Of a DNA stretch of 38,411 nucleotides, positions 15,054 through 32,421 are shown one piece after another. Numbering within the stretch: the stretch's first letter is position 1; every line of letters begins with the position of its first letter. Source of the DNA: a virus; IMG/VR virus record IMGVR_UViG_3300021440_000065, positions 1 to 38,411 of that record; one strand, given 5' to 3'. The translations under genes and the position numbers were made by a program. The notes beneath the pieces are model-generated. The model had not been told where the DNA came from, made no database searches, and saw nothing but the letters and a program-made list of their open reading frames with translations.

Positions 15054-15421
15054 GCTGGTTTTCCTTTCAGCTCAAAATGATAAGGGTCTTTTGCATCCCA
15101 ATAGCCACCTTTGGCAATCCAGAACGCACCAAGTACTTCATACCGGGAATCTTTCCAGAGAATGTCATATCCTGTTTCGTCAGTTATCCAAATATCCACG
15201 GCCAAAGAAACAAGGTGGTCTGATTGCAGAACGCCTACCTTCGGCCAAACAAGCTGCACACCTCTGTTCCAGAGGTCAATACCTGTGGAATAGATTTTGG
15301 CAAGTATGCTTGGCCTATTCCACTCCCCGCCACGGATAGGCAAGCCCTGTTCTTTTGTGGACTGGAGAAGGGCTATAAACGCATCACGGAACCAATCGTT
15401 TTGCTGGCGGCGAGTCATCAT
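15050..15421 (-). CDS. Endolysin: M15-family peptidase
   Basis: The 123-aa protein has the zinc triad of M15/VanY-type peptidases: H69 and D76 in QSDHLVSLAVDIW (H-x6-D spacing as in S-x-H-x2-G-x-A-x-D) and H115 in DPYHFEL. A conserved GAFWIAKGGYWDAKD region precedes the last His. It cuts peptide cross-links of the host cell wall (D-Ala or L-Ala-D-Glu type; exact bond not deducible). There is no signal peptide, so it needs a holin. Two adjacent ATGs at 15421 and 15418 follow the SD AGGTGAGG; the second gives better spacing. Confidence 0.88.
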   Translation of the reverse strand: MMTRRQQNDWFRDAFIALLQSTKEQGLPIRGGEWNRPSILAKIYSTGIDLWNRGVQLVWPKVGVLQSDHLVSLAVDIWITDETGYDILWKDSRYEVLGAFWIAKGGYWDAKDPYHFELKGKPA

Positions 15422-16260
15422 ACCTCACCTATTTTTCTTAGATTGCAACGCCCTTCTGCAACAGTTATGCTGTTTGAAGCTGTATTTTCTATATAGATTT
15501 CAATAACGTTGCCTACTGAAAGATTTGCAAGGGCTTGTGAGGATATTCTTGTTGAAATGCCAAGGGGGAGCTCTTGTGTAATTGTGGAGATTGTACTTCC
15601 TCCACTAACTCTTAGTGCGCAAGAGATTCCACTTCCAGAGGAGCTACCTGCCCTCATTGAATAATCTAGAACATAAACCCCTGCTTCCACAATTACAAAC
15701 TTGTCGGCTGTTGTCATGGTAACAGACTTACTTAGACCACTGGTGGGAAGGGAAAGAAAAGCAGAAGAAGACATTGCAATAGTTTGGCCTATTCCTGCAT
15801 TGTATTTTTCTGCATAAACGCCTTGTACGGCAGCATGGGTGTGTAAGCCATCTGCAACAGAGCCATCAGAAAGGGTTTCAAGCTCATCACCTTCTATGTT
15901 CGTACTTGTTCCACGTATGATAGACTCCACTCCAGAATCATGGAAAGTTGCAGTGTTTGGAACAACAAGCATAAGGTCACTAGTTATAGTTCCTCCTGTC
16001 AACCCTGTCACAGTAAGATTATGAAAAGTAGGGTCACTTGCTACCTTAACAGGTTGGTCGATACAGGTATCAAAATAGGCTACCCATTCACAAAGAATAT
16101 AGTATAGCCAATTGATAAAACCTCTTGCTGGTTTTCTGTTTACCCAAGTAAAACCTGTGGCTCTTACGCCTGCATCTGGAACAGCCCTGTTTGGTTGCCC
16201 TGTTATAGGGTCTATTGTGTCTGTGCTTGCCCAATTTGGAACTATTGATGGCTTTGCCAT
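15418..16260 (-). CDS. Tail fibre protein with C-terminal jelly-roll-like domain
   Basis: A 280-aa virion protein. The N-terminus (MAKPSIVPNWASTDTID, GQPNRAVPDAG, GFTWVNRKPARGFINWLYY, CEWVAYFD) is a common attachment module of phage fibre or baseplate-distal proteins. The middle has short beta repeats and a GLHTHAAV turn. The last 110 residues (FVIVEAGVYVLDYSMRAG, SGSGISCALRVSGG) resemble C1q/TNF-like trimeric jelly rolls, the likely receptor-binding head. SD AAGGAGG precedes the ATG. It is the last structural gene and lies directly before the endolysin. Confidence 0.8.
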   Translation of the reverse strand: MAKPSIVPNWASTDTIDPITGQPNRAVPDAGVRATGFTWVNRKPARGFINWLYYILCEWVAYFDTCIDQPVKVASDPTFHNLTVTGLTGGTITSDLMLVVPNTATFHDSGVESIIRGTSTNIEGDELETLSDGSVADGLHTHAAVQGVYAEKYNAGIGQTIAMSSSAFLSLPTSGLSKSVTMTTADKFVIVEAGVYVLDYSMRAGSSSGSGISCALRVSGGSTISTITQELPLGISTRISSQALANLSVGNVIEIYIENTASNSITVAEGRCNLRKIGEV

Positions 16261-17587: not shown

Positions 17588-17739
17588 ATACTCTCCACAA
17601 CTAAACCCAAATCATCGAAAACCCTTGCAATTACGACTTCTGGCTCTGCTTTTGTTATATTCATTGAAAAGATAACAGTATCTTTTGTTGCTCCTGCTTT
17701 TTCTGCTATTGTAACAAGATTTCCCCAGGTGCAGCTCAT
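17584..17739 (-). CDS. Small hypothetical protein, 51 aa
   Basis: ATG at 17739 follows SD AGGAGA and overlaps the upstream stop (ATGA). The 51-residue product starts MSCTWGNLVTIAEKAG, has a strand-like middle (DTVIFSMNITKAEPEVVIARV) and ends VVESI. It overlaps the next start by four bases. Continuous coupling and a clean SD make it credible despite its size. Unknown function; part of the fibre/baseplate gene string. Confidence 0.65.
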   Translation of the reverse strand: MSCTWGNLVTIAEKAGATKDTVIFSMNITKAEPEVVIARVFDDLGLVVESI

Positions 17740-19523
17740 TCTATGTCTCCTGTCTGCTCATCGTCAATTCCGTCCATTATTGTTCGGAGGTCAGAAAGAA
17801 GCTTTGTTGGCATTTCCGCAGCAGCAGGAAGGTTTGTGGTCTTGCTATCAATTGCTGTAACGATTTCTCCTAAGTCTGTTAAGGCAGCAGTGTGATTTAC
17901 CAGGGAATCAGTGTCTTTTGCAAAGCCAGTCCCCTTTACATCACTAAACCCTTCTGCAATGTTGTCAAGGATTGTACTTTCACTTTCAAGTATGTCACTA
18001 AATTCTGCTGCATTCGCTATTGTTTGCGCTTCAAGAGAAAAATATTGTGGGTCATAAGTAACACTACCCAAGTCGGTAGGTGTTGCGGCGGTCTTACTCA
18101 TTAAAGCCTTGAAAAAGCCTAGTACATCGTTGTTGCCACCAGTGGAAAAAGCTCCGAGTCGTCCGTTAATTGCATCTGTTCCATATACGCCCGCCTTATG
18201 TGCTAGAGCAGTTAAGCTATCTGTGTTCTTAATAAAACCTGTACCTTTTATGTCTGTAAGATGTGTTGTTTGTGTCGTTTGTGTTGCGGCAGTTGCAATT
18301 TTATCTGTTTCGAAAAACCCATAGTTATTTATAGTGGCAGAAGAACCTGTTTGAGCTATTGTTCCACAACCGCCATAAAGATTAATCGTAATAGCAACAT
18401 CTGGCACAACTATTTTTAATCCCTTTGATGCAATAATGTCTATTGTTCTTCCTGCTGATATTGAGCCAGATATTTTGAATACTCCACTACAATTTAAAAG
18501 TTTTGCATTTATTGCATTACCGTTGGTTCCAAGAATAAAGTTTATAGATGCTGCATTTTCAAAAGTACAGCCAAGGAAAAAGATGGAGCGATAATAAGAG
18601 TTTGTCAACGAAATACTGTTTACAATCTGAGAATCTTCAAAAATACAATCTGTACCTATCCAGGTTACACCTGAAATAAAACATTTGACAAATTTACACG
18701 TGTTAAATTTATATGTTGCATCCCCATATAAAAGAAAACCGTTAAATAAAGCACCTTCCACGTTTGAGGTTGTTAATGTTACAGAAGGAGAGTCGGGGGT
18801 GGCATAACCTAAATTATAAATTGACTTGTCTAATAATTTTGAACCAGTAAAGCTTAGAGAAGAACCCGAATTATACCTTAAGTTTATTTTCTTTAATTTA
18901 TTACTTGTTGCAATGTCTGCCGCATCGTCAATAGAAACGGCAGGTTTTGCAGATGTCCCTATAGGAAAAGTTGTACCTGTATCGCCACCATCAGACACCC
19001 AAACAGCACCCTCGTCAAATCGATAATCATCACTCGTACTATCTGCTGGATAAGGGTGAAGTCCAATAAGAAAATCAAGTGTTGCTGTATTTTGTCCAGC
19101 ACACTTGCATCTTGCCCACCATAAAGAACCAGCTGGCGACCTGTCACATTGAATTTCCCGAACATCCGTTCTTACTGCGGCGCTATCTGCGATAAAAGGA
19201 AATTCATCATAAGTACCTGCTGTTAAAGCACCTGCCCCACTTGCTCCATAACCGATTTGAATATCGTACCTATTTGACCTTTCAGAAGCGGTTATTTGAA
19301 TCCTGTGTAAATCGAAGAAAGGTAGACCAGAAGTATCTCCAGAGCCAAGAAGTTGAACCCACGTTCCCCAGGTATCATTTCCAGCATCTATCTGAAAGGA
19401 ACCATTATCTGAACCTATTCTATCAGCAAAATGAGTAGCAGAAGGTGTTGTTGCCTTACCATACCAGCGTCCCCACGAATGGAGGTGGTTTTCTATTTCT
19501 TCTATTGTTTGTTTACTTGACAT
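17736..19523 (-). CDS. Large beta-rich tail fibre or tailspike protein, 595 aa
   Basis: The N-terminal 200 residues carry aromatic beta segments (HLHSWGRWYGKA, WGTWVQLLGSGDTSGLPFFD). Residues about 200-410 have short Asn/Gly/Ser-rich strands of the parallel beta-helix type (FNTCKFVKCFISG, SYYRSIFFLGCTFENA). The C-terminal third is helical, with a repeated motif DIKGTGFIKNTDSL / DVKGTGFAKDTDSL, probably a trimeric coiled-coil stalk. No hydrolase site is identifiable. About 1.7 kb of this gene lacks the CAGGG word common elsewhere, which hints at a separate origin. Confidence 0.75.
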   Translation of the reverse strand: MSSKQTIEEIENHLHSWGRWYGKATTPSATHFADRIGSDNGSFQIDAGNDTWGTWVQLLGSGDTSGLPFFDLHRIQITASERSNRYDIQIGYGASGAGALTAGTYDEFPFIADSAAVRTDVREIQCDRSPAGSLWWARCKCAGQNTATLDFLIGLHPYPADSTSDDYRFDEGAVWVSDGGDTGTTFPIGTSAKPAVSIDDAADIATSNKLKKINLRYNSGSSLSFTGSKLLDKSIYNLGYATPDSPSVTLTTSNVEGALFNGFLLYGDATYKFNTCKFVKCFISGVTWIGTDCIFEDSQIVNSISLTNSYYRSIFFLGCTFENAASINFILGTNGNAINAKLLNCSGVFKISGSISAGRTIDIIASKGLKIVVPDVAITINLYGGCGTIAQTGSSATINNYGFFETDKIATAATQTTQTTHLTDIKGTGFIKNTDSLTALAHKAGVYGTDAINGRLGAFSTGGNNDVLGFFKALMSKTAATPTDLGSVTYDPQYFSLEAQTIANAAEFSDILESESTILDNIAEGFSDVKGTGFAKDTDSLVNHTAALTDLGEIVTAIDSKTTNLPAAAEMPTKLLSDLRTIMDGIDDEQTGDIE

Positions 19524-27066: not shown

Positions 27067-28410
27067 TTATAGTGTTACCGTACCATCGATACGGACAAAG
27101 TGTATTGCGCCTGCAAGCCATGCAGTGAACTTCATATCATTCAAGGACCTTGAACTTTTATCCGCAGAAGGCACTGAAGAAAGAGAGGGCGCGGTTATAA
27201 CATAGCCACCTATCTGAACGCCTTCAGATGTGAATTCTTTTGGAGAAATGCCTCCTCTTGCAAGACCTGTTGCGAGAGGCTCTTCCATTGCAGAAGCTAT
27301 TGCATTGATGCCTGAATTTGTGTAAGGTACTTTCTTTGCTTTAGTCAGGGCTGCAAAAACATTTTCCTGAAGACGGGCATAGAGCCAATCAATGAAGATA
27401 ATGACATCTATGAATTCTCCTGAGCCAACTGTACCTTCTGCAAGAATATCTACTCCGCCAACTGACTCATAACTGTTAGCATTTTTAGCACGAACATTTG
27501 TTGAGTATGTGTCTGTAAGTGCATTTACCGTGATTGCTGCAAGGGTCTTAAACTTGACAGTGTATTCACCTGGATTGAGAGGAAGAATTCTACCTGCAAC
27601 TGCTGCTTCAATTCCTTCAGTTGCCGCAAGTGTAGAATAAAACACTGCTGTTTTTGTGAGATTGTTGGAATCCGCATAGTAAGCAATGGAAGTCGTGTCT
27701 GTTCCTGAAGCCTGTGCTGCAATATTGGAATCCCCAGAACCACAAAAGAAAAACTTCTTATTGCTTTCGACCCAATCTGCAATCAGCTCTTGTTTTTCAA
27801 TTGTCTGTGTTTCTGCACAAACTCCGTACCAATCTGGTTGTTCAAGAAGAATTGCATTCAATGCTGTTGTGTATGTTTCAGAAAGCTCAGTGCTTGTGAT
27901 TGTGTAAGCAAGTGTTCCTGTTACTGCTGTGAGCACAAAACTTACACCCACAACTTTTCCTGTGTTTGGTGTGATTACGAGGGTGTTTGTTCCTGCCGTA
28001 TATGCTGCTGTATCCACATCAGCATCTGCTGCAATATCTGTTGCAAGGGCTGCAATAGTTGTGTCCAGGTCAGTTGTCCATGCTTTTGAAATTGTACGCC
28101 CGTTAATCAGGGCTGAGATTGTTCCACCTGTGAAAGTACCTGTGAAAACGGCTGTTCTGCTTGCCTGAAGAGAACCAAGAGCAATACGTGTTGGGGCAGG
28201 GTTCTGTGCAAAAGCTGCTTCAACTAAAGCAGATTCACGGGAACTTGTGCCTGTAATTTTTGCAAGGGCTGTTGCAGAAGTGGAGAAATACTCCAGTCTG
28301 CTGTCAAGATTGCAGTTTGGTCCTACAATAAGTAGTGTGCCAAAACCTGCTTGGGATACGTTAGCTGTCTCGCGAGAGATAACTACGTTTACTATTTCGG
28401 AAAGATTCAT
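27067..28410 (-). CDS. Tail sheath protein (DUF3383-like)
   Basis: 447 aa. MNLSEIVNVVISRETANVSQ and FGTLLIVGPN at the start, YGVCAETQTIEKQELIADWVE in the middle and GGVDILAEGTVGSGEFIDVI later match the DUF3383 sheath family, which proves a contractile tail. Residues about 85-175 (FTGTFTGGTISALINGRTI and following) look like an inserted Ig-like beta domain exposed on the sheath surface. Strong SD (AAGGAGAAG). Immediately downstream of the gene carrying the terminator domain, as in related phages. Confidence 0.93.
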   Translation of the reverse strand: MNLSEIVNVVISRETANVSQAGFGTLLIVGPNCNLDSRLEYFSTSATALAKITGTSSRESALVEAAFAQNPAPTRIALGSLQASRTAVFTGTFTGGTISALINGRTISKAWTTDLDTTIAALATDIAADADVDTAAYTAGTNTLVITPNTGKVVGVSFVLTAVTGTLAYTITSTELSETYTTALNAILLEQPDWYGVCAETQTIEKQELIADWVESNKKFFFCGSGDSNIAAQASGTDTTSIAYYADSNNLTKTAVFYSTLAATEGIEAAVAGRILPLNPGEYTVKFKTLAAITVNALTDTYSTNVRAKNANSYESVGGVDILAEGTVGSGEFIDVIIFIDWLYARLQENVFAALTKAKKVPYTNSGINAIASAMEEPLATGLARGGISPKEFTSEGVQIGGYVITAPSLSSVPSADKSSRSLNDMKFTAWLAGAIHFVRIDGTVTL

Positions 28411-28421
28411 AAATCTTCTCC

Positions 28422-31148
28422 TTATACTGAGGTTATTGTTATCGTGTCCGTATTAATCGTAACGCCGCCACTGTCTTTTATTGTACCTTCCATTGTGACT
28501 GAATCAATGAGCCCCTGGCTTATGTCCTGTGTTTCCCAAGGCATTCTCATCATCAAGTCCAATGCTCCACGGCTTTCAAAGTTGCCATCTGTTACTGCTG
28601 AGATGTCCGTTGGGCCCATTAGCTCTTTAACAAATACAATGGCTGCTGTCTGTAAAATAGCATATTTTTCTTGATAACACAAGGAATCTCTTAGTGCCAT
28701 CAAATTTTCTATGGGGTCATTGCTTTCATTCCCATAAAAGCGGATGGACAGAGTAAACTCGTTGTGTGTGAGTACCTTGCCTACTCCACTTGTGTTTGGC
28801 TCATATACTGCTGCAACGCCTGTTGTAGAAAAAGCAGTTGTCCGTAAAGTCACGTATGGTTTGGAAGGTTTTGTCACGTCCTGATTTGCCCAGATAACAT
28901 GGTTTGCATCAAAGCCTGTTACAGAACGTACCCAAGCTATCATTTGTTTTTTGGAAAGACTGTAAGCCGTACTTGTTGCTTTTGTTTTTGCTGTAACTGC
29001 AAGGCTCCAGGGGCTCGCTCCTGCTGCATTTCTTGCTCTAACATAATAAGAATAAGTTGTGTCTGGAGATAAATCTTCTTCCTGAAAATCAAGAGCTGTT
29101 ATACCTGTTTCAAAAGCAGTTGTTCCATCATGGGAAAGTTCATAAGTTGCAGCAGGGCCTCCGAGAACAGAAACCATGTTCCAGGAAATATTATTTGTTG
29201 TTGAATCCAGAGCAAACGCTGCAAAGCCTGTTGGTGTAAGAGGCAAGTCCAATGTCCCTGGCTCTAGTTCTCCTATTATGCTCTGTCCTTTTATCTTCAC
29301 TTGTTCGTTCTCTAAAAGAATTGCGGGGTCTAAGTCGTCTGTTCTCTGGTTTTCTAAAGCAATATATTCTGGATTATCTGGTGAAATTGGAAGCCCTGCG
29401 AAAGTACCTGTAATTGTATTGTTTTTATTTAATACTTGTTCTCCAAACTTTAAAATTTCAGGTAACAAAGTATCATTTCGAGACGTTTCAAAATCTTCTG
29501 CATTACTAAGAAAATCAAAATAACCAAATACGCCTTCAAGAGTTAAAGCGTCTCCTTTATAGTTAATAATAGTCATATCAACATTTTGAGTAATTGGAGA
29601 TGAAGGAGCGCCCACTTCTATATGCGTATCGGATTGATTTTTATATTGCGTTGCTTCTATGCCATTGAATAAAACAGTTAGTGGCCCATCCGTATCTGGA
29701 TCGCCAAAACCGCCCGTACTTTCAATCGTTATCCATCCGCTGCCAGATAGTGAAATAGAATATGCTGGGGAAAGCTTAGTAAGAACAAGTTGCGTTCCAG
29801 CTTCAAAGTCATTAGTTTCAACTATTGATACTTGATTCAACGCCGCCCAGTCTGGATAGGTAAATGCCTTGCTTGCTGTGATTGTAGTCGTATCCGCAAG
29901 GGTAACGACAATGTCAACCGCTGTTAAGTTTGCGGCTTTGTCTGGTGCGTCAACCTTCATTGTTTGAGCATCTACAGGCACAAGGTTCGTAGCTGCTGTT
30001 CCTCCAAAAGTAACGCCTGTCGCCCCTGTAAGAACTTTGGGAGAAAGAGGGTTTAGCTTTATCGTTACTTGTGTTGTTCCAGATAGGCGTTTAATATTTG
30101 GGGTAACTTCTAAAACGCTGCTTGTCATATCTTCGCCCGATAAGCCAGTTGTTGTAAATACCTGATTAAGCGTATCCCCGCCAACATCCGTTGGAACACG
30201 CCTGCCAGTTACAGTTGATTTTAAGCGATAATCTCCATTAGCTGAATCTCTAAAAATATCCTCGGTTTCGTCTATTCGAGATAGCTCGGTTATGCTGCCT
30301 GTTGTTACGGAATTAGCAGATGCACAATTATAATATGTATTATTAGTCGCTAATACCCAGCCTGTTGTTGCAGCAATGCCTTTACCGCTTGAGGCAGTAT
30401 TGCCAAAACAGTTGTTGCGTATTATTGCCAAGGTCGAAGCTCCTGTACTTATCGATGCGGTTGACGCATTAACTATTATACAACCATTAACATTTGCAAG
30501 CTGACTGGATATAGATATTCCAATTGTACCACCAATAACAAGGCAATCTAGAGCTGACCCAGATGTTATAGTCAATCCAATTGAACTATTATTGATAGCC
30601 TTACATCTTATGTATTGAGACGCTGTACTAGTAGTTATACCCTGCAATCCATTATTGGCCGCTAAACAATTTAAATAAACCATAAGCGTCCAGCCAGAGC
30701 CAGAAACGGTACCATTAATCCCTACTGCTGAATTAGATACAGCACTACAGTTTTGAAAAATTAAATGAGCTGACACACCAGTTATACCTCTTATTCCGTC
30801 ACGCGTTGCGCCCTGCCAGCCCCAATTTTTAAATGTCACGTAATTTAGACCATTTAGATTTACAAGGTCAGTCGTTGCACCCATGCCAGAAGCAACCGTA
30901 TAATGAGAAACATTATCGTCAAGCCATAAATCATTTGTACAAATAAATTGAGCCATACCAGTAATCGCACCACTTATCATTGCAGCGGTTAGCGTCAATG
31001 TTGTTGACCGTGTTTTCAATCTTCTGGCATATACAATATCCGTACCTGTAACACCTGTCATATTAGCAATATCGCGCCAAGCATTGGCGGCGGAGGTGCC
31101 ATTATTAGCTCCTGTTGTGAGGGCTTCGTCAATATAGAGATTAGCCAT
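28422..31148 (-). CDS. Tail terminator/neck protein fused to an adhesin-like beta-helix, IPT and FnIII array, 908 aa
   Basis: Residues about 1-330 have short Asn/Ser/Gly-rich strands of a parallel beta-helix (VTFKNWGWQGATRDGIRG, NGCIIVNASTASIST). About 365-435 and 450-545 look like IPT/TIG domains (TGVTFGGTAATNLVPVDAQT; GPLTVLFNGIEATQYK). About 636-725 is a fibronectin III domain (SPDTTYSYYVRARNAAGASP). The last 175 residues (MIAWVRSVTGFDANHVIWAN, PYVTLRTTAFST, EFTLSIRFYG, LMALRDSLCYQ) match the phage neck/tail terminator family (LIC_12616-like). The gene holds the terminator's place, directly before the sheath. The fusion would display adhesin-like domains at the neck. The start overlaps the previous stop (TAATG). 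Confidence 0.8.
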   Translation of the reverse strand: MANLYIDEALTTGANNGTSAANAWRDIANMTGVTGTDIVYARRLKTRSTTLTLTAAMISGAITGMAQFICTNDLWLDDNVSHYTVASGMGATTDLVNLNGLNYVTFKNWGWQGATRDGIRGITGVSAHLIFQNCSAVSNSAVGINGTVSGSGWTLMVYLNCLAANNGLQGITTSTASQYIRCKAINNSSIGLTITSGSALDCLVIGGTIGISISSQLANVNGCIIVNASTASISTGASTLAIIRNNCFGNTASSGKGIAATTGWVLATNNTYYNCASANSVTTGSITELSRIDETEDIFRDSANGDYRLKSTVTGRRVPTDVGGDTLNQVFTTTGLSGEDMTSSVLEVTPNIKRLSGTTQVTIKLNPLSPKVLTGATGVTFGGTAATNLVPVDAQTMKVDAPDKAANLTAVDIVVTLADTTTITASKAFTYPDWAALNQVSIVETNDFEAGTQLVLTKLSPAYSISLSGSGWITIESTGGFGDPDTDGPLTVLFNGIEATQYKNQSDTHIEVGAPSSPITQNVDMTIINYKGDALTLEGVFGYFDFLSNAEDFETSRNDTLLPEILKFGEQVLNKNNTITGTFAGLPISPDNPEYIALENQRTDDLDPAILLENEQVKIKGQSIIGELEPGTLDLPLTPTGFAAFALDSTTNNISWNMVSVLGGPAATYELSHDGTTAFETGITALDFQEEDLSPDTTYSYYVRARNAAGASPWSLAVTAKTKATSTAYSLSKKQMIAWVRSVTGFDANHVIWANQDVTKPSKPYVTLRTTAFSTTGVAAVYEPNTSGVGKVLTHNEFTLSIRFYGNESNDPIENLMALRDSLCYQEKYAILQTAAIVFVKELMGPTDISAVTDGNFESRGALDLMMRMPWETQDISQGLIDSVTMEGTIKDSGGVTINTDTITITSV

Positions 31149-31537
31149 TACTCAACCGCCTTCTTAAGACGTTCCACGCCATCACTATTGTAAAGCCCAA
31201 TCGTTTGGTCTATGGACGCAACACCTAATAAAGCCTCTCTCATTGCGTTAGTATTATGGACAGCCTTATCGTTAACTTGCTGCGCTAATATTTGTTCTTC
31301 TGTTAATTCTATCTCTGGCTCTGGTTCAACACATTCACCTATTGTGTTTATACCTTTCAGTATTGCATCTGATGGAACTTTACAACCAATAAGATTACAG
31401 TCATTAAAAACCAAACTCTTAGCGGCAAACACCGGAACATCTTTACCGTATCGTGCAAAATTACACTTAATAAAAATATCATTGTCCTGATAAGCTGGTA
31501 TTACCATGTGTGCATAATTAAGAAATTTATATACCAT
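31148..31537 (-). CDS. Companion of the neck fusion protein, 129 aa
   Basis: ATG at 31537 follows GAGGTG; a GTG at 31543 would add two residues. The N-terminal half has short strand repeats of pentapeptide/beta-helix look (NDIFIKCNFARY, SLVFNDCNLIGCKVP). The C-terminal half is a charged helix (EIELTEEQILAQQVNDKA) ending in ASIDQTIGLYNSDGVE. Not recognised. It overlaps the start of the 908-aa fusion and lacks the CAGGG word, as does much of that protein's beta-helix part. It may be an assembly chaperone or second subunit acquired together with it. Confidence 0.65.
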   Translation of the reverse strand: MVYKFLNYAHMVIPAYQDNDIFIKCNFARYGKDVPVFAAKSLVFNDCNLIGCKVPSDAILKGINTIGECVEPEPEIELTEEQILAQQVNDKAVHNTNAMREALLGVASIDQTIGLYNSDGVERLKKAVE

Positions 31538-31595
31538 AAACACCTCGGAGCAAAGCGGATTCGTAGGCTATAATTTTATTTTGTGTGTCTATCAT
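31527..31595 (-). CDS. 22-codon minigene between head-tail genes
   Basis: ATG at 31595 overlaps the preceding stop (ATGA). The frame codes MIDTQNKIIAYESALLRGVY and two more residues, and ends at 31527 inside the next gene. AAGG lies about 10 bases upstream. Its role may be only to carry ribosomes toward the start at 31537. Low certainty as a functional peptide. Confidence 0.35.
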   Translation of the reverse strand: MIDTQNKIIAYESALLRGVYGI

Positions 31596-31924
31596 GATTC
31601 AAGGACCTTAATGACAAGGTATTTATAGTGATTTATTACACCATTTTGCCAGGTCTCTCTCTGTTCAATCTCATAGCTTTCTCCATTCAGCAATACAAAA
31701 TCTTTTATCTGAGAATCTGCAAGGTTCAAAAATGTATCTGTGAAAATATATTGCGGGTCTCTACTTCTTCTGCCTTCAGGAAGATTTTTTACCTCTTCCT
31801 GTTTCAAAGGTTGAACAGAAGCATAGATTATGTCATCTGTTAAAACACCAGGGACAACATAGCCATCCACAATGGTAGGTGTTGCACTTCTCTTAATAGC
31901 AATCTGTCTTCTAAAGCAACTCAT
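31592..31924 (-). CDS. Head closure / head-tail joining protein, 110 aa
   Basis: A beta-rich small protein with RRQIAIKRSATPTIVDGY, IIYASVQPLKQEEVKNLPEG, YIFTDTFLN and SYEIEQRETWQNGVINHYK. The order is typical of small head-closure proteins lying between connector and neck genes (lambda FII / SPP1 gp16-like group, by context). It would gate DNA in the connector after packaging. The start overlaps the preceding stop (ATGA), and there is no independent SD. Confidence 0.75.
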   Translation of the reverse strand: MSCFRRQIAIKRSATPTIVDGYVVPGVLTDDIIYASVQPLKQEEVKNLPEGRRSRDPQYIFTDTFLNLADSQIKDFVLLNGESYEIEQRETWQNGVINHYKYLVIKVLES

Positions 31925-32421
31925 TGTTCTTTACCAAAAGATTTTTCCTGAAAGAGCATTTGTCCCCCTCTCAGAAAATCTTTGTGTTGGATTGTTTCGT
32001 AAAGTTGTCCTGTCTCTACAAGAGGCATATCATGGCCTTTTTTATACACATTCTTTTGAAAAGGCCCGTTCTCAATCTTATGCTTAATCATGTTTACTAC
32101 ACGGTCGCCTATGCCACTCAGCCCCCACTTAACCAGTTCCTTGCCTGCAATAATCTGATTGACAAAACTCTCAGAGAGCCAGAAAATGTTTTTTCTGTTT
32201 TCATCTGTTGCGGAGCGTATGAAGGAGCGTTCAGGTATTTTGCCTTCGCCCATTTCATTTATAGCTGCGTAGTTTATTACTTCCTCTGAAGAACTTTTTC
32301 CAGAAGTCTTGCAGTCCATTGGGAGCCCTGCTTTTGTGAAAGAGCCATTGAGAAGTTTTAATTCTCTGACTATTCTGCTGTACCCCAAGTCTCTTTCTAA
32401 AACTTGGAATTCAGAATACAT
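31921..32421 (-). CDS. Neck / virion morphogenesis protein, HK97 gp10-like, 166 aa
   Basis: It contains NYAAINEMGEGKIPERSFIRSATDENRKN, of which YAAINE-x-G-x-x-x-IP-x-RSF-x-R is the mark of the phage virion morphogenesis/gp10 family. It is followed by a helix (SFVNQIIAGKELVKWGLSGIG) and PLVETGQLYETIQHK. Neck ring component or tail-completion protein. Its start lies one base after the previous stop; GGTG is the only SD-like element. Confidence 0.82.
   Translation of the reverse strand: MYSEFQVLERDLGYSRIVRELKLLNGSFTKAGLPMDCKTSGKSSSEEVINYAAINEMGEGKIPERSFIRSATDENRKNIFWLSESFVNQIIAGKELVKWGLSGIGDRVVNMIKHKIENGPFQKNVYKKGHDMPLVETGQLYETIQHKDFLRGGQMLFQEKSFGKEQ

Follow-up and report, generated by a model that had tools for sequence, protein, structure and literature searches.

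An arm-bearing tail terminator: a candidate neck appendage fused to the head-tail joint of an E217/XM1-like phage

Tail terminators are viewed as joint proteins that are small and do not vary. The locus considered here raises the question of why a gene in the position expected for one of them encodes a protein of 96 kDa, five times the size of the small tail-cap protein, and of what the additional residues might do. The gene lies in the window, by which we mean the whole stretch of 38,411 nucleotides that was analyzed (IMG/VR virus record IMGVR_UViG_3300021440_000065, positions 1 to 38,411). A sequence-only reading of this DNA had proposed that a terminator is fused to a beta-helix, two IPT/TIG domains, and a fibronectin type III domain, which together could form adhesin-like arms at the neck. 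The features discussed below are collected in Table 1.

Table 1. Fusion gene, its predicted domains, and neighboring genes (window coordinates)
Feature	Residues	Position	Strand	Basis or remark
Tail sheath		27067..28410	-	phrog_205, E 1.3e-94; directly downstream of fusion gene
Fusion gene, N-terminal beta-rich array and C-terminal tail (neck) terminator		28422..31148	-	single frame
Tail/neck terminator domain	724-908	28425..28979	-	PF23961, NF047498, phrog_7975, model
C-terminal beta-strand, presumed sheath-gripping arm	897-906	28431..28460	-	predicted strand, model residues 177-186
Fibronectin type III domain	639-720	28989..29234	-	PF00041
Acidic region, possible linker	546-635	29244..29513	-	pI 4.05, 19% D+E
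Possible second IPT/TIG-like domain	445-545	29514..29816	-	sequence pattern by eye only
Probable IPT/TIG domain	345-431	29856..30116	-	PF01833, sub-threshold
Probable right-handed beta-helix	1-330	30159..31148	-	DUF5123, period, Cys ladder
131-aa ORF		31148..31543	-	overlaps fusion-gene start (TAATG); absent in L002
Stopper/collar (E217 gp28-like)		31592..31924	-	phrog_939, E 1e-21; weak E217_gp28 match
Neck1 / tail completion		31921..32421	-	phrog_222, E 3e-20

The neighborhood of the gene is that of a terminator. It sits between the stopper/collar and the sheath, in what had been called the usual slot of a terminator ahead of the sheath, and the profile matches bear this out (phrog_939 and phrog_222 upstream, phrog_205 directly downstream). 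On the stopper side the order is capsid, adaptor, Neck1, and stopper/collar, with the 131-aa ORF intervening; on the other side are the sheath, a phrog_280 virion protein (the probable tube), the assembly chaperone, and the tape measure. The same stopper-terminator-sheath slot is found in phiEt88 and in two of the fetched loci, L002 and L004. The 131-aa ORF has no family match and no homologue in the fetched loci, and L002, which lacks the arm, also lacks this ORF; despite its coupling to the fusion gene, it would play no role in the account of the neck given below. Elsewhere in the window, a 595-aa ORF that follows the baseplate wedge genes (17736-19523) has no Pfam or PHROG match and is a probable tail spike or fiber, and a 280-aa ORF (15418-16260) weakly matches, at its C-terminus, the BclA C-terminal domain, a trimeric head type found in fibers.

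The C-terminal part of the protein (residues ~724-908) is confirmed as a tail/neck terminator by both sequence and fold. Matches were obtained with PF23961 (residues 737-889; 48.2 bits against a cut-off of 27, E 1.2e-12), NF047498 (residues 734-885; 63.5 bits against a cut-off of 28, E 1.7e-17), and phrog_7975 (residues 744-899; E 1.5e-13), and a search of the PDB with the family profile returned the terminators of Pam3, Sf14/Bas63-type phages, and phiTE. A single-chain model of the domain, built from 11 sequences, has a pLDDT of 81 and shows the terminator fold, a beta-sheet with flanking helices; it matches the terminators of Sf14, phiTE, Pa193, XM1, E217, and Pam3 with Z of 12-15.6 (PDB entries 9c39, 9cc7, 9b42, 7kjk, 8fvh, and 8hdr). 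The family membership that had been proposed for the last 175 residues, and the fold that it entails, were thus both recovered. The chain ends in VTINTDTITITS, predicted as a strand at a pLDDT of about 50-60. It resembles the C-terminal strand of the E217, XM1, and Milano terminators, and the motif is alike in L002 and in the L003/L006 pair.

The arm comprises the first ~728 residues (76 kDa) and is acidic. Nearest to the terminator, the fibronectin type III (fn3) domain exceeds its cut-off (26.3 bits against 25, E 8.8e-6). Residues 1-330 probably form a right-handed beta-helix because they match DUF5123 (residues 230-312; E 9.5e-8 on the fragment, 33.6 bits, below the cut-off of 35.1), because hydrophobic residues recur with a 23-residue period (P 0.015 over all periods 10-35), and because seven cysteines (at 134, 161, 182, 202, 223, 247, and 275) form a ladder with spacings of 27, 21, 20, 21, 24, and 28 residues (P 0.0024 for evenness). 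The Beta_helix profile also matches this region weakly (E 0.087). Residues 345-431 are probably an IPT/TIG domain, given a PF01833 match with E 0.0029 and 18.0 bits (cut-off 20.9). We consider a beta-helix and one IPT domain in the arm to be well-supported predictions. Of the array that had been proposed, then, the fn3 domain stands, the beta-helix and the first IPT domain fall just under their cut-offs, and the second IPT domain found no profile match in the domain search. Structure prediction, which had been suggested as a check, was similarly divided, in that the terminator modeled as described above but AlphaFold, run on the single sequence of residues 1-544, gave a pLDDT of 38. The possible linker matched no family in the profile search, and no carbohydrate-binding or enzyme families were detected in the arm. 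When viral contigs, genomes, and phage records were searched with the whole protein and with the arm by itself, no homologue of the arm was found, and the arm therefore carries no evolutionary signal about its partner.

Among relatives, the terminator is found both bare and decorated. The closest relatives by sheath are L002 and L009 (clade support 100/100). In L002 the terminator is an unfused protein of 180 aa that starts 2 bases past the stopper gene, whereas in the window the 131-aa ORF and ~2.2 kb of arm separate the stopper gene from the terminator domain; the L009 terminator bears ~80 extra C-terminal residues. Terminators of 164-194 aa occur in L004, L008, L010, L011, L014, phiEt88, and phages of Enterobacter, Hafnia, and Exiguobacterium, and those of the four annotated phage relatives that were fetched are single-domain proteins of 164-181 aa. 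Two other kinds of decorated terminator were found, all adjoining the sheath gene. In L025, at least 735 residues, largely repeated GSIxxxLEETxxxAxG units, precede the terminator (the frame is open at the contig start). The near-identical proteins of L003/L006 (683 aa) carry two fn3 domains and a further tail on the C-terminal side of the terminator; to our eye this tail looks lectin-like, and a Pfam lectin match is absent. In both sheath and terminator trees, L025 and L003/L006 are not grouped with the window, so the three decorations were probably gained separately, judging from the few lineages sampled. It should be noted that L025 is a contig (region 1-2730) from a MAG labeled Nanoarchaeota, although it carries a myophage tail module. 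No second match to its terminator family was found among 194 genomes of the MAG's phylum, which suggests a stray phage contig that was binned with the MAG rather than an archaeal gene. The sequence-only reading had called the fusion unusual, and this holds for described phages, whose terminators in the relatives are single-domain; no phage record matched the fusion over its full length. It is not unique, given that other arrays are fused to terminators of the uncultured L025 (N-terminal) and L003/L006 (C-terminal).

Separately, the window sheath contains an ~80-residue insertion (residues ~90-170) of the pattern GGTIS..(V/I)NG...(S/T)..W..D..TT..ALA. By eye, an insertion of this type is also present within the L003/L006 terminator (L003 5921-7972, residues ~25-105), and further cases occur at L003 2419-3213, L006 2418-3212, and L014 1275-2369, including a capsid-decoration-type protein. 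It appears to be one domain common to several virion proteins.

Our overall reading, which we consider likely, is that the window encodes the terminator of a small contractile phage resembling E217, XM1, and Pam3, extended at its N-terminus by an arm, such that the virus particle probably carries six neck arms, which likely serve in binding. A ring of six fusion subunits would close off the tube and the sheath. The terminators of E217, XM1, and Milano use their C-terminal strand to complete a beta-sheet within the first ring of the sheath (PMC10329688, PMC10457771, PMC10491603), and the channel wall of phage 812 is built from the core sheets of six terminators, with the helices flanking (PMC12886913). 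With the C-terminus paired with the sheath and the core sheets lining the channel, the N-terminal helix is the permissive fusion point, and a load placed there should extend outward without obstructing the contact with the sheath. Each subunit could thus still use its C-terminal strand to complete the sheath beta-sheet, and the N-terminus, at the start of the outer helix, would carry the arm outward. From the ring, the order would be fn3, linker, IPT-like domain(s), and beta-helix at the tip.

Most likely, the arms would attach to glycans or to some other feature on the surface of the host or its matrix, in line with what has been proposed for neck spikes, and they may additionally brace the head-tail joint. 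For binding outside the particle we rely on the domain types, their turnover between relatives, and analogy with the XM1 collar spike. Tail length usually follows a rule of 0.15 nm per tape-measure residue, which for the tape measure of 549 aa gives about 80 nm. We estimate from domain sizes that an arm spans about 20 nm, so that its tip would stop short of the baseplate plane. A receptor in the membrane is therefore a less likely target than surface polymers, appendages, or matrix.

Because this is a metagenomic contig, with the fusion present as a single copy and its arm lacking a homologue, it is reasonable to ask whether a neck spike gene and a terminator gene were joined by assembly or sequencing error. 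We consider this very improbable. The frame runs for 908 codons from its ATG with zero internal stops (chance probability ~2e-25 at this base composition), and no repeats hinting at a mis-join occur at the junction between the two halves. Third-position GC is 0.27-0.42 over most of the frame, matching the range of the neighboring genes, except in the block of residues 501-600 (0.15). There is also no orphan start for the terminator, and L025 offers another N-terminal fusion of this sort, independent of the one in the window. Mis-assembly was rejected on these grounds. It could also be that the arm is cleaved off, or that few subunits are full length, leaving rings with few or no arms. Minor, longer versions of ring proteins do occur in phages, and a 96-kDa subunit could burden a tight hexamer. 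We nevertheless think this improbable. A short form made from an internal start is disfavored, as no in-frame start with a Shine-Dalgarno sequence was found near the arm/terminator junction. The sole in-frame ATG there, M736, lacks a Shine-Dalgarno sequence and lies inside predicted helix 1 (residues 726-744), half of which would be lost by starting at this codon. Separate translation of the terminator domain is therefore unlikely, and internal initiation was rejected.

A different role for the same arm is less easily set aside, namely, that it is a structural brace rather than an adhesin, wrapping the neck or the first sheath rings and so strengthening the head-tail joint. The neck decorations of phage 812 and the Milano collar have been proposed to reinforce the neck, XM1 gp40 strengthens the head-tail joint, and an arm that ends short of the baseplate plane must make any host contact laterally or with extended surface polymers. 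However, a close relative, L002, manages without an arm, and the decorated relatives differ completely in domain type (beta-helix/IPT/fn3, LEET repeats, or an fn3 pair with a lectin-like tail), and such variety is easier to reconcile with changing binding partners than with a constant brace. A purely structural arm thus seems unlikely to us, and we favor outward-pointing arms that bind.

Given fusions in separate lineages (window, L025, and L003/L006), the terminator ring seems to have served repeatedly as a platform. Whether neck arms generally dock on this ring in uncultured E217/XM1-like myophages, with unrelated adhesin-type arrays having been fused to it repeatedly at either terminus to give an appendage class distinct from whiskers and collar spikes, is in our view an even call. 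If large, exchangeable arms are a recurrent feature of terminators, the neck would be a second, overlooked contact site for hosts or matrix, at which the arms would be covalently linked and always six in number. Annotation of such a gene as "tail fiber" or "hypothetical" would miss both the position of the arm and the terminator. The fusion also indicates where a contractile tail cap can bear a large load without blocking its connection to the sheath.

Among characterized systems, E217 gp29 (the "gateway"), XM1 gp5, and the Pam3 terminator (LIC_12616/PF23961 neck terminators) share the family and/or fold and the pre-sheath slot, and they have a C-terminal strand like the one predicted here. 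Known members consist of a single domain and have about 156-200 aa, whereas the window protein adds 728 residues in front. The proposed arms may be compared with neck appendages such as T4 fibritin whiskers, A-1(L) neck fibers, and Sf14 whiskers, although these are separate proteins on other neck rings or adapters. The XM1 collar spike gp40 is closer, with an Ig-like domain and a spike at the stopper/terminator, six per neck, as proposed here, and XM1 collar spikes have been proposed to sense hosts. However, gp40 is a separate trimeric coiled-coil protein, bound non-covalently to gp4/gp5, whereas the window arm is part of the terminator chain, one per subunit. Whiskers and collar spikes are separate proteins attached to the neck; here, arm and terminator share one frame. 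The arms, placed at the neck on the basis of the terminator domain, may resemble the XM1 collar spikes or the whiskers of T4 in how they work and yet fall outside those families. L025 and L003/L006 share with the window the terminator family, a large beta-rich array, and a position beside the sheath gene, but their domains differ and the L003/L006 array is C-terminal. In the literature searched, which took in few subscription papers, we found no account of a terminator that bears a fused array of the adhesin type. The nearest described case is phiCD508 gp53, which likewise has an extra domain ahead of the canonical terminator; that domain has a terminator-like fold and gives a double-layered ring (PMC13324602), and is thus a second terminator-like layer rather than an adhesin-type array. 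The more interesting point, we suggest, is the recurrence of such fusions among relatives.
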